Of a DNA stretch of 64,000 nucleotides, positions 32,447 to 46,909 are shown in pieces. Source of the stretch: Natrarchaeobaculum aegyptiacum (GTDB lineage Archaea; Halobacteriota; Halobacteria; Halobacteriales; Natrialbaceae); NCBI RefSeq assembly GCF_002156705.1, contig NZ_CP019893.1, positions 2,170,001 to 2,234,000 of the forward strand, in the 5' to 3' direction. A model generated the notes under the pieces. That model made no database searches. It was not told the origin of the DNA and worked only from the letters and a program-made list of their open reading frames with translations. A program made the translations under genes and the position numbers. Numbering within the stretch: the first letter of the stretch is position 1; each line of letters starts with the position of its first letter.

Positions 32447-35400
32447 ATGTCGCTTCCGGAACGCATCGCCGCCGTCGTCACCGGCTATTCCAAGACCGTT
32501 CTCGTCGTCTTGCTGCTCGTGACTGCGTTGCTCGGGGCCGGTGCGGGACTGGTCGACGACGACACGTCCCTCGACCAGTTCGAGAGCGAATCTCCCGAGG
32601 CGCAGGCAGCCGAGGACATCGAAGAGCGCTTCGCAGCCGAGGACGGCGAGGATACGACGACCGTCCAGTTGATCTACCGGGGCGACGTGACCGACGACAA
32701 CGTCCTCTCACAGGAGGCGCTGGTCAGTTCCCTCGAGTTCCAGCAGGACCTCCGCGACGATGCCTCGGTGAACGCGACCCTCGTCGAGGACGACCCGATC
32801 ACGGGCGTCGAGAACATCGTGGCGATGACGGCGATCACCCAGCAGGAGGTCGCCGAACTCGAGGAGCGCGGGGAGGAACTCGAAGAACGTGGCGAAGACC
32901 TCGAGGAGCGCGGTGAAGAACTCGAAGAACGCGGCGAGGAACTCGAACGGGCGGGCCAGGAACTGGCCGAGCGCGAGGCCGAACTCGAGGCCCGCAGTGA
33001 GACGCTCGGGGCCGGCATCGACGAGGTCCGGGAACTCCAGCGCGAGTACGAGGAACTCGCGGCCGTGACCGACGAGGACGACCCCGAGTACCAGCAGGCA
33101 GTAGCCGAACTCGAGGCCGAAACCGACGCTGTACTCGAGGAGACCGTCGAGATGGCGGACCTCGACGACGAACAGGCCGCCGAGTACGGCGAACTGGCCC
33201 AGCAGGCCCAGGCGATCGAGACGGGGCTGTTCGAGATCGAGCAGACGGCACCCGATCCGACTGCAGTCCCCGAATACGAGGGCCTCCAGGAGGACCTCGA
33301 GGACCTGTACCTCGGCGCGACGATGGGCGTCCTCGAAACGGAGTACGAAGGGCTCGAGGAAGATGGTGAGCAACTCGAGGCCGAACAGGAGGCCCTCGAG
33401 GAAGACGGTGAGCAGCTCGAAGACGAACAGGAAGAACTCGAAGAGGCGAGTGCGGAACTCGAGGCGGAGTTCGAGCAACTGGAGGAGGAAGACGACGATG
33501 ACGACGGTCCGCCGCTCGACGAACAGATCGAGACGCTCGCCGACCTCGACGACGAGGAGTTCGAAGACGCTCTCGAGGCGACGCTCGAGCCAGACGACGC
33601 CGAGGAGGCTCCCGGACTCGCGTTCATGCCCGCCGAGTACGAGCCGGGTGAACTCGAGGCCGACGCCCGGATGACCGCGCTCACACAGGAACTCGGCGAC
33701 GCCGAACTCGAGGCCGGCGAGGCCGACGAGGTGCTCGAGGCGCAACTCGACGTGCGGTCACTGGCGGGAGATCACGATCACGAGTACGTGGTCTTCGGAA
33801 TCGGGATCATCACCGACGAGATCGATCGATCGATGACTGACAGCCTGGCGATCGTCGGGCCACTGGCGCTCGCGTTCGTGATCGCGGCGCTGTTGATCGC
33901 CTACCGCGATCCGCTCGACATCTTGCTCGGCGTGGTCGGCATCGTCCTCGTGCTCGTGTGGACCTTCGGGTTCATGGGCTGGGTGGATATCGCGTTCAAC
34001 CAGATGATGGTCGCGGTCCCGGTCCTGTTGATCGGGCTCTCGATCGACTACGCGATACACGTGTTTATGCGGCATCGAGAGCAACGCGAGGTGCTACGCA
34101 CCTCGGAACGAATAGCGAGGGATGCAGGGCGTCCCTCGGACCATGCGAGCGGACCGGAGGTCCGCGAGCAGACGGGGAGTGAAACGACCCGTGAACGACG
34201 CGAAGCGCTACGCGTTTCGGACCGCTCGCCCGAGGAACCGGACGATAGCGTCGAGACCGTCCGCGGCTCCATGACGATCGCACTGGCCGGCGTCGGCGTC
34301 GCGCTCGTCTGGGTGACCGCGACCACGGCCATCGGCTTCCTCGCGAACCTCGTCAGCCCGATCGCACCGATCCAGGAGTTCGCGATCGTCAGCGCCGTCG
34401 GCATCGTCTCCGCGCTGCTCGTCTTCGGCGCGCTCGTGCCCGCCGCGAAGGTCGAACTCGACTCGCTGCTCGAGCGGTTCGGCCTCGACCGGCACAAGCG
34501 AGCGTTCGGGACCGGTGGCGGGCGCTTCAGCGACGTCCTCAGCGTCGGTTCGGTCGCCGCACGACGGATTCCACTGGTCCTCATCATCGCCGTTCTCCTG
34601 CTCACCGCCGGCGGCGTCTACGGGGCGACCCAGGTCGACACCAGCTTCGACGAGGAGGACTTCCTCGCCGAGTCCCCGCCCGAGTGGACCCAGCAACTCG
34701 GTCCGCTCGCACCCGGCGACTACCAGGCCGCCGCCGACCTCGAGTACGTCAACGAGAACTTCCAGCGCGAGGACATGCAGGCCCAGCTACTCGTCGAGGG
34801 GGCGGTTGCCACCCCGGAGGCGCTCGAGCGTCTCGACGCCGCTCAGGAGGAAGCGAGCGAGAGTCCCGTCGTCTTCACGGGTGCAGATGACGAGGCGGAC
34901 GTCGACGGCCCGCTGGCGCTGATGGCGGAGACGGCAGCCCAGAACGAGTCGTTCAACGAGTCGTTTATCGCGGCCGACACGACCGGCGATGGGGTTCCCG
35001 ACGAGGATATCGACGACCTCTACGACGAACTGTTCGAGATCGACGCGACGGCAGCGAGCCAGGTGCTCGATCGGACCGGTGACGGCGAGTATCAGGCGGC
35101 CAGGATGGGGGTCGCTATCGACGGCGACGCCGCTGCCAGCGACGTCACCTCTGAGATGCGGGCTATCGCGGCGGGTATCGACGACGAGGGCGTCGGCGAC
35201 GACCGCGAGGTGGACGACGAGGGCGTCGGCGTGATCCCCGACGACGGCTTGCAGGCCATCGCGACCGGTGACCCGCTCGTGAACTACGTCGTCGAGCAGG
35301 ACCTCTTCGAGACGGTCATCCAGAGTCTGCTCGTGACGCTCGTGGCCGTCTTCGTCTTCCTCTCGCTCGCCTACAGGCTGACCGGCAACAGCGCGACGCT

Positions 35401-36013
35401 CGGGGCCGTCACGTTGCTGCCCGTCGCGTTCGCCGTCAGCTGGATCCTCGGGACGATGTACCTCCTCGGGATGCCGTTCAACGTGCTGACGGGGATGATC
35501 ACCAGCCTCACTATCGGCCTCGGGGTCGCCTACAGCATCCACGTCAGCGCCCGGTACACGCTCGAACTCGATCGCACGGGCAACGTCTGGGACGCGATGC
35601 GCACGACCGTGACGGGAACTGGCGGGGCGTTGCTCGGCAGCGCGGCGACGACCGTCGGCGGCTTCGGCACGCTGGCGTTCGCCATCCTGCCGGCGCTCCG
35701 GCAGTTCGGGATCATCACCGGCCTGACGATCACCTACGCGTTCCTCGCGAGCGTCGTCGTCCTCCCGACGCTGCTCGTCCTCTGGACGCGGTACTTCGGC
35801 CCTGACGTGTCGTTCGACCTCGAGCCGAGTGCGCACTCGACGCCGGCAGCGAGCGACGGTGGCCGACCCGAGTCGGCGGCCGGTTCCGATTCAGACCACG
35901 ATCCGGGTACTGACCCGGGTTCCGATGGCACCGCAGCCGACCGATCCGACGCGGGGACGACCGGACCGGACGACTCAGGCGACGACGTCGAGGGCGACCG
36001 AACGGACGGCTGA
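32447..36013 (+). CDS. MMPL/RND-family exporter with a palindrome-derived insert
   Basis: 1188 residues with the RND two-half plan: one helix (about 15-37), a large external loop, five helices (about 466-680), repeated in the second half (last helices to about 1130). The first external loop (about 50-460) contains a coiled coil, with a run of LEERGEE-type seven-residue units near residues 138-170. RND/MMPL proteins export lipids or hydrophobic compounds driven by the proton or sodium gradient. Between helices 4 and 5, on the cytoplasmic side, is an Arg/Glu/Ser-rich stretch of about 55 residues (about 547-601) coded by palindromic DNA. The C-terminus is a low-complexity acidic tail. Other MMPL proteins in haloarchaea have a similar loop position; the size of the insert is judged from sequence character. 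Confidence 0.88.
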   Translation: MSLPERIAAVVTGYSKTVLVVLLLVTALLGAGAGLVDDDTSLDQFESESPEAQAAEDIEERFAAEDGEDTTTVQLIYRGDVTDDNVLSQEALVSSLEFQQDLRDDASVNATLVEDDPITGVENIVAMTAITQQEVAELEERGEELEERGEDLEERGEELEERGEELERAGQELAEREAELEARSETLGAGIDEVRELQREYEELAAVTDEDDPEYQQAVAELEAETDAVLEETVEMADLDDEQAAEYGELAQQAQAIETGLFEIEQTAPDPTAVPEYEGLQEDLEDLYLGATMGVLETEYEGLEEDGEQLEAEQEALEEDGEQLEDEQEELEEASAELEAEFEQLEEEDDDDDGPPLDEQIETLADLDDEEFEDALEATLEPDDAEEAPGLAFMPAEYEPGELEADARMTALTQELGDAELEAGEADEVLEAQLDVRSLAGDHDHEYVVFGIGIITDEIDRSMTDSLAIVGPLALAFVIAALLIAYRDPLDILLGVVGIVLVLVWTFGFMGWVDIAFNQMMVAVPVLLIGLSIDYAIHVFMRHREQREVLRTSERIARDAGRPSDHASGPEVREQTGSETTRERREALRVSDRSPEEPDDSVETVRGSMTIALAGVGVALVWVTATTAIGFLANLVSPIAPIQEFAIVSAVGIVSALLVFGALVPAAKVELDSLLERFGLDRHKRAFGTGGGRFSDVLSVGSVAARRIPLVLIIAVLLLTAGGVYGATQVDTSFDEEDFLAESPPEWTQQLGPLAPGDYQAAADLEYVNENFQREDMQAQLLVEGAVATPEALERLDAAQEEASESPVVFTGADDEADVDGPLALMAETAAQNESFNESFIAADTTGDGVPDEDIDDLYDELFEIDATAASQVLDRTGDGEYQAARMGVAIDGDAAASDVTSEMRAIAAGIDDEGVGDDREVDDEGVGVIPDDGLQAIATGDPLVNYVVEQDLFETVIQSLLVTLVAVFVFLSLAYRLTGNSATLGAVTLLPVAFAVSWILGTMYLLGMPFNVLTGMITSLTIGLGVAYSIHVSARYTLELDRTGNVWDAMRTTVTGTGGALLGSAATTVGGFGTLAFAILPALRQFGIITGLTITYAFLASVVVLPTLLVLWTRYFGPDVSFDLEPSAHSTPAASDGGRPESAAGSDSDHDPGTDPGSDGTAADRSDAGTTGPDDSGDDVEGDRTDG
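34086..34220 (+). repeat. Cluster of palindromes inserted in frame in the MMPL gene
   Basis: Three perfect hairpins and one imperfect one lie inside the coding sequence. CGAGGTGC (34087-34094) and GCACCTCG (34098-34105), loop TAC. CGAGGGA (34116-34122) and TCCCTCG (34132-34138), loop 9 nt. GCGGACC (34149-34155) and GGTCCGC (34159-34165), loop GGA. The fourth, CGAAGCG...CGCGTTTCG (34201-34219), loop CTA, is imperfect. The frame stays open through all of them. Confidence 0.75.
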
Positions 36014-45597: not shown

Positions 45598-46909
45598 ATG
45601 CTGGAGACGACCCGCACCTACGTCGCACGCATCACGAACCACTCACAGGTTCGTGACGACCTCGACCAGTGCGGGTTCTCCGCCTCGAAACTGTGGAACG
45701 TCGGACGCTACTACATCCAAGACCGGTGGGACGAAAACGGCAAGATACCTGACGAAGCCGAACTCAAATCGGAGTTGAAAGACCACGAACGCTACAGTGA
45801 CCTCCATTCTCAGTCAAGTTCGTTCGAGACGGCGAAGCCGTCTCGTGATGCCAATGAGCTTCGCTCATTGAGCACAGCGAGTTCTCGAAGAACTTGCTGA
45901 AGCGTTCAACGGCTGGTACAACTCCGACGACGGCAACAACCCACCGGGCTACCGAAAACGTGGCGACCGACACCCGCGCTCCACCGTCACATGGAAGAAA
46001 CGAGCCATCAAGCACGACGATAAACACGGCCAACTCCGCCTCTCGAAAGGGTTCAACCTGAAAGAGAGTCGGTCTGACTTCATCCTCGCGGAGTACGAAA
46101 CCCGCCCCGACGTAGAAGTCGAGAACATCCAGCAAGTGCGTGCCGTCTGGAACGGAGACGAGTGGGAACTGCACCTCGTCTGCAAGAAAGAAATCCCCGT
46201 CGAGGACGCCCCCGGCGACAACACGGCGGGAATCGACCTCGGTATCAGCAACTACCTCGCCATCGACTACGAGGACGGCCCCTCGGAGTTGTATCCGGGG
46301 AACGTGCTGAAAGAGGACAAGCACTACTTCACCCGCGACGAGTACCAGACCGAAGGCGAGAACGGGCCGTCAAAGCGTGCGCGGAAAGCCCGCAGGAAAC
46401 TCTCTCGACGCAAAGACCACTTCCTTCACACCCTCTCAAAACACATCGTACAACGGTGTGTCGAAGCAGGCGTGGAGAAGGTAGCAATTGGCGACCTCAG
46501 CCACATCCGCGAAGACGAGAACGGCGACTCGCGGAACTGGGGTGCATCGGGGAACAAGAAGTTGCACGGGTGGGAGTTCGACCGCTTCACGAACCTGCTC
46601 GAATACAAGGCCGAAGAACACGGCATCCTCATCGACCGGGTGGACGAAGAGAACACCTCGAAGACGTGTTCGTGTTGCGGGCAGATTCGAGACAGCAACC
46701 GCGTAGAGCGTGGACTGTACGTCTGTGAATCGTGCGAGACGGCGATGAATGCAGACGTCAACGGTGCGGTGAACATCAGGCGAAAGATAACTCAGAGTCC
46801 CCCGACGGGGGATATGAGTAACGGCTGGTTGGCACAGCCCGGAGTCTTCCTGTTCGACCGCGAGAGCGGGACGTTCAACACGAGAGAACAGGGAGACTGC
46901 AAACCCTAA
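45598..46909 (+). pseudogene. tnpB: tnpB broken by a 55-bp double-hairpin insert
   Basis: Start ATG 45598, MLETTRTYVARITNH. The frame is normal to residue 74 (SDLHSQSS), then 55 nt (45820-45874) shift it and reach a TGA at 45898-45900. Beyond the insert the frame resumes as QRVLEELAEAFNGWY and runs intact to TAA 46907-46909. The nuclease core is still readable: GIDLGISNYLA (first Asp), NADVNGAVNI (third Asp) and zinc Cys pairs CSCC and CESC. At the second active-site position the peptide has IGDLS where Glu is expected. Without the insert this would be a full TnpB of about 418 residues. So it is an inactive gene unless the frame is restored. Confidence 0.85.
45820..45874 (+). repeat. 55-bp insert of two perfect hairpins
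   Basis: First hairpin: CGAGACGGC (45825-45833) and GCCGTCTCG (45837-45845), loop GAA. Second: CAATGAGC (45852-45859) and GCTCATTG (45863-45870), loop TTC. Both have a three-base loop between GC and GC. The length is deduced by joining the coding sequence on both sides (S-S-Q-R), so edges may be off by a few bases. Confidence 0.75.

Follow-up and report, generated by a model that had tools for sequence, protein, structure and literature searches.

The window, by which we mean the whole analysed stretch of 64,000 nucleotides from Natrarchaeobaculum aegyptiacum, contains a gene for an MMPL-family exporter that carries a dense cluster of hairpins (Table 1). The first-pass annotation had described four stems in this segment. 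The cluster was found there, with the number of stems corrected to five; H2 and the last H1-type stem include one G.T pair each. Its statement that the reading frame is not broken was confirmed by the open reading frame, which runs through the entire cluster. The central part, termed core in the following, has the layout TAG-hairpin-GACCATGC-hairpin-GCAGA. The left arm of H1 starts in CAACGCGAG, which is also present in orthologues without the insert, and H4 occurs without the core in orthologues.

Table 1. Exporter gene, hairpins and core (window coordinates).
Feature	Position	Strand	Description
MMPL-family exporter gene	32447..36013	+	1188 residues; ORF unbroken; Pfam MMPL E 2.8e-29
Extra stretch compared with orthologues having the minimal 14-residue loop	34091..34237	+	about 147 nt, 49 residues; ends approximate; from comparison of protein and DNA loops
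H1, older module	34087..34105	+	8 bp, perfect
H2, first hairpin of core	34116..34138	+	10 bp, one G.T; covariation in the family
H3, second hairpin of core	34144..34170	+	7 bp perfect, tandem G.A mismatches, 3 bp (TGC-GA-stem-GA-GCA)
H4, older module	34173..34191	+	CGGG/CCCG, tandem G.A, 2 bp, GAA loop; core parts H4 from its 5' foot
Second H1-type hairpin	34201..34219	+	8 bp, one G.T
Mobile core (predicted)	34113..34172	+	60 nt, TAG...GCAGA; between GCGAA-type sequence and CGGGG; covariance model 87.5 bits

Folding of positions 34082-34224 resulted in five stems in a row. This fold surpassed 200 of 200 dinucleotide shuffles, with z-scores of -5.2 for the sense RNA and -4.3 for DNA, and the antisense RNA of the same segment reached -2.6. 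When only strict hairpins were counted, 3 were observed with 0.29 expected, a number reached in 2 of 200 synonymous-codon shuffles of the MMPL gene; by this crude count alone, the MMPL cluster does not have the highest density in the window. The significance of the hairpin cluster comes from comparative evidence and not from the number of strict hairpins per window, which is weak on its own.

Orthologous loops were compared in about 30 haloarchaeal genomes and in named orthologues, of which 76 of 80 could be parsed. The loop after the conserved DYAIHVFMRxRE motif usually has 12-17 residues, typically about 14, versus 63 in the window; the gap at the insert that the first-pass annotation had suggested looking for is thus present in most orthologues. 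Two genomes of the same genus have loops of 14 residues (G002) and of 33 residues without the core (G003). About ten orthologues have a loop of intermediate length that encodes H1 and a second hairpin, such as QRETQRVSDERTGRNATREQRE in Natrinema versiforme. This older module (H1 and GCGAA^CGGGG..CCCG) is found in about ten relatives, and among the orthologue copies its H1 stem is kept by compensatory changes at 6 of 8 pairs (0 of 500 shuffles), with changes in the encoded residues. Direct repeats of about 9 nt (CAACGCGAG or similar sequences) border the older module, 57 nt long, at four MMPL loci (L314, L317, L324, L325); they may be a target duplication, unlike the situation at the core. In a predicted model of the fragment based on 35 orthologues, the insert appears as a low-confidence linker between two long helices. 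As read from these alignments, the cluster is a composite of an older hairpin module and a 60-nt core inserted in frame into this module; the exporter loop between helices 4 and 5 would first have been lengthened by the module, and the core would have landed inside it later.

Searching for further copies, as also proposed in the first-pass annotation, was productive. A blastn search with the segment revealed a 77% copy within the trpC gene of the window's genome, a tandem array at another site, and matches in 44 of 119 relatives. An alignment of 24 copies was then turned into a covariance model, which detected dozens of copies in other haloarchaea: 80 of 100 relatives contained copies, up to at least 40 per genome, and a phylum-wide draw gave matches in 24 of 33 haloarchaea, compared with none in the other genomes (about 164). 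The counts leave out four additional genes of the window's genome (L121, L125, L127, L129), whose matches are weak (28-34 bits). Rfam covariance models, including those of the haloarchaeal sotRNA/omega RNA, did not match the element at E values up to 1, and plasmid and phage collections gave no blastn match. The insertion into the exporter gene is confirmed, with the corrections that the cluster is composite and that the element occurs across haloarchaea, mostly between genes, without being specific to exporters.

The dispersed copies share a conserved structure. In a MAFFT-only alignment of the 24 copies, covariation was found at 17 of 26 pairs. Among 108 distinct model hits, both sides changed in 23 of 24 pairs (440 cells vs 115 in shuffles); these larger counts use a model-fitted alignment that is biased towards structure, and slide controls as well as the MAFFT-only alignment agree with them. 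Of 160 copies, 140 retain the tandem G.A mismatch in H3. G.U cells slightly outnumber A.C cells (87 vs 58, p ~0.02), a weak indication that folding takes place in the sense strand. Two further repeats were observed in this context. One locus in the window's own genome (L003 1494-1731, approximately C1:226,317-226,554) contains a hairpin unit of 63 nt, related to H4, in 3.8 perfect tandem copies; RVSETRTGSETTRESRDPSYA recurs in one of its frames, and the array adjoins sulfur-transporter-like genes (assigned by eye). Also, many intergenic cores sit in a repeat of about 200-500 bp with the conserved ends GGTGGCGCGCGCTGTCGG and AATCGGCTGGGGAGGGC (L072, L103, L104, L106, L139 and about 30 other loci), which may be a separate, larger mobile element.

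The boundaries of the core are given by exact filled and empty pairs at four unrelated loci, namely MMPL, trpC, the right ends of tnpB and an acyl-CoA synthetase gene. For MMPL, the site is filled in the window and empty in Halopiger goleimassiliensis (G024; GCAAACGGGG). For trpC, the window's genome reads GCGAA[60 nt]CGGCG, G022 has the empty site GCGAACGGTG (short form GCGAACGG), and at 27 of the 29 remaining TrpC loci this site comprises exactly 16 residues without any insert. The acyl-CoA synthetase genes of G019 and G043 contain TGGAA[54 nt]CGGTGAG, compared with (A/G)ACGG in 15 orthologues. Filled right ends of tnpB read GAGGG[55-60 nt]TGGGGCTT (TGGGG flank) and empty ones GAGGGTGGGGCTT (short form GAGGGTGGGG). 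From these four pairs it follows that the unit spans TAG to GA, most often GCAGA. Neither terminal inverted repeats nor a target duplication were found in the filled and empty pairs, and the differences between genomes suggest that the core is mobile.

Most copies have a length of 51-60 nt, and two subtypes of 60 and 54 nt account for most of the genic ones. Of about 155 copies, 120 start with TAG, and the base before it, G or A, is part of the target, so that about half of the copies show GTAG. The preferred target is GA(A/G)^(C/T)GG, and insertion often takes place at the foot of a further hairpin; GCGAACGGGG is a candidate target sequence for the core. Flanks of genic copies are mostly GA(A/G)^CGG, with 18 of 21 fitting a slightly looser rule, whereas intergenic flanks are less uniform and agree less closely with the target rule. 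In the acyl-CoA synthetase gene of G079, which belongs to another family, a different core of 51 nt occupies the identical codon (L285, compared with the 54-nt L192/L193); the same-codon cores may result from repeated insertion at one site or from transfer between lineages.

About 23 copies scoring at least 45 bits are located in frame within about 19 kinds of gene, all of them in sense orientation, and most other copies lie outside recognisable genes. Pfam confirmed, among other hosts, TrpC, TrpA, HemD, two synthetases (for acetyl-CoA and acyl-CoA), a FAD-linked oxidase, a DEAD-box helicase and a ValS-type tRNA ligase; Trm5-like, CobN-like, LeuD-like and epimerase-like hosts were assigned by eye. 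Comparison with solved structures revealed that enzyme domains are interrupted, with residues 110-113 of 5ey5 aligning to query residues 103-146 for TrpA and residues 203-210 of 1vc4 aligning to 207-248 for TrpC, in which the insert amounts to 37 residues. The length is a multiple of three in 20 of 21 genic vs 60 of 99 intergenic copies, a contrast that is partly circular because genic copies were picked by their open frame. The consensus is free of stops in all antisense frames, and coding strands carry the target only 1.6 times more often; the sense bias must therefore be due to something else, either selection on the peptide or a feature of the movement or of the RNA.

Taken as a whole, the data make it likely that positions 34113-34172 are a copy of a haloarchaeal non-autonomous mobile element, presumably moved in trans by an enzyme and tolerated in genes. 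A putative trans-acting enzyme would recognise the folded single strand, DNA being likelier than RNA, and move the core by the logic of IS200/IS605 or REP elements. In these systems, a tyrosine transposase recognises folded single-stranded DNA, and the exact, target-preferring, duplication-free insertion of an asymmetric hairpin unit resembles their logic. Genic copies would survive because their lengths are multiples of three, because stops are missing from two of the three sense frames, and because the peptide that they encode (here ARDAGRPSDHASGPEVREQ), hydrophilic and probably disordered, would be tolerable in surface loops.

The Y1 transposase (PF01797) gave no match in G024, G050, G077 and G104, each with 26-37 copies, and was rejected as the resident mover because it is absent from several of the copy-rich genomes. 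This absence counts against the mobile-element reading, as does the poorer agreement of intergenic copies with the target rule. TnpB was found in 9 of 9 genomes checked. The window itself contains two TnpB-type C-terminal domains (PF07282; 4052-4276 on the minus strand and 46577-46777 on the plus strand), and the genome has 21 such matches. A more far-reaching version, which we regard as tentative and rather doubtful, is a class of structured mini-elements that are independent of a resident Y1 transposase (possibly RNA- or TnpB-assisted), mobile through the fold of the sense strand, and repeatedly provide unrelated proteins with the same disordered peptide of 17-20 residues, in some cases independently at one and the same codon.

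Four other explanations were weighed against a trans-moved element. The core could be a terminal piece of IS605/IS1341-type transposons, i.e. a PATE or a fragment of the tnpB omega RNA, with the dispersed copies being ends that were left behind or moved by TnpA. Cores are indeed located at the right end of several tnpB genes, in opposite orientation, and PMC3119063 describes the Haloquadratum PATEs as derived from IS605-type ends and likewise without inverted repeats and target duplications. Against this stand the sister tnpB right ends, which precisely lack the core; the core at these ends is therefore an insertion and not a native end, and the tnpB right end was rejected as core source. As a strong core match is present at only 4 of 30 tnpB loci, the Y1 transposase is missing in several copy-rich genomes and the Rfam RNAs do not match, we consider this origin unlikely.

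Similarly unlikely in our view is a functional structured RNA, regulatory or protein-binding, that was duplicated and kept by selection at each site, the genic copies being cis-acting mRNA structures. Strong covariation, the conserved tandem G.A mismatches, the sense-only orientation of genic copies, the better folding of the sense strand and the slight excess of G.U over A.C would all fit such an RNA. However, the sites are scattered and lineage-specific, close relatives have MMPL and trpC genes without the core, and the host genes share nothing obvious.

A local origin of the palindromes by template switching or slippage in a variable loop is very improbable for the cluster, even though the left arm of H1 begins in sequence shared with insert-free orthologues and loop length varies among genera. 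Copies at unrelated loci are homologous to the core along with its linkers, and template switching would have turned the G.A mismatches into perfect pairs, whereas they are kept; for the core, this origin is contradicted. The older module could have arisen by local template switching or slippage. Removal of the core from the mRNA or protein, as a mini-intron or in an intein-like manner, would explain how a highly structured insert can interrupt conserved enzyme domains and be absent from the mature protein, but it is scarcely credible, since the genic copies are in frame and free of stops, as introns need not be, and inteins are far longer than 51-60 nt.

To our knowledge, the in-frame palindromic elements known to rewrite proteins come mainly from Rickettsia, together with some bacterial REPs. 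We class the core family with non-autonomous in-frame palindromic elements, here in archaea, and found no description of it in the literature searched, which consisted mostly of journals accessible without subscription. The family occurs across haloarchaea, its unit has exact boundaries and prefers certain targets, and its covariation is strong in more than 100 copies. Some haloarchaea can be grown and transformed. With this family it becomes testable in what way such elements move without an obvious transposase, and if useful new protein segments arise from them. The element may also explain Arg/Glu/Ser-rich inserts in haloarchaeal enzymes.

Among known systems, MITEs differ by their inverted repeats and target-site duplication, both of which are missing in the filled and empty pairs. 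REPs (GTAG-tagged and RAYT-associated) are, like the core, short hairpins that are mostly extragenic and sometimes intragenic. The core also has TAG at the hairpin foot, but the base before it belongs to the target; moreover, the core is a two-hairpin unit longer than the 20-40 bp of REPs, and the Y1/RAYT transposase is absent from several core-rich genomes. The PATEs of Haloquadratum walsbyi are described in PMC3119063 as transposase-free and palindromic, without inverted terminal repeats or target duplication, and their movement was seen or inferred although TnpA genes are disrupted. By this description, core and PATEs share the haloarchaeal host, palindromes near the ends and the lack of inverted terminal repeats and target duplication. 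PATEs derive from both ends of IS605-type transposons, whereas the core was itself inserted into such an end, and in-frame genic copies, as found for the core, are not described for PATEs in the passages of PMC3119063 consulted. PMC3119063 also reports the small mobile repeats SMR-A of Haloquadratum, a type which inserts in near-terminal palindromes of IS605-type elements without target duplication and with its mover given as unknown. The core behaves alike at IS605-type ends; according to the same text, SMR-A has about 110 bp and prominent inverted terminal repeats, compared with 51-60 nt in most core copies and no such repeats.

The core works in a similar way to intragenic REPs and to the Rickettsia palindromic elements (RPEs), the latter being palindromic, dispersed and located in frame in many unrelated genes while being compatible with protein function (PMC10969869, PMC3733652); haloarchaea are not mentioned in PMC3733652. 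The first-pass annotation had pointed to in-frame Rickettsia elements, and this likeness holds for behaviour: with its approximately 23 in-frame genic copies, the palindromic core likewise inserts into many unrelated genes. Sequence homology to an RPE family would not be expected between such remote taxa. It differs in being haloarchaeal, in its 54-60 nt vs about 150 bp for RPEs, in its mostly intergenic copies, and in its two hairpins with conserved linkers and tandem G.A mismatches. We therefore judge the element to be an archaeal counterpart of the RPEs, in the sense of the same behaviour, without implying that both belong to one family.
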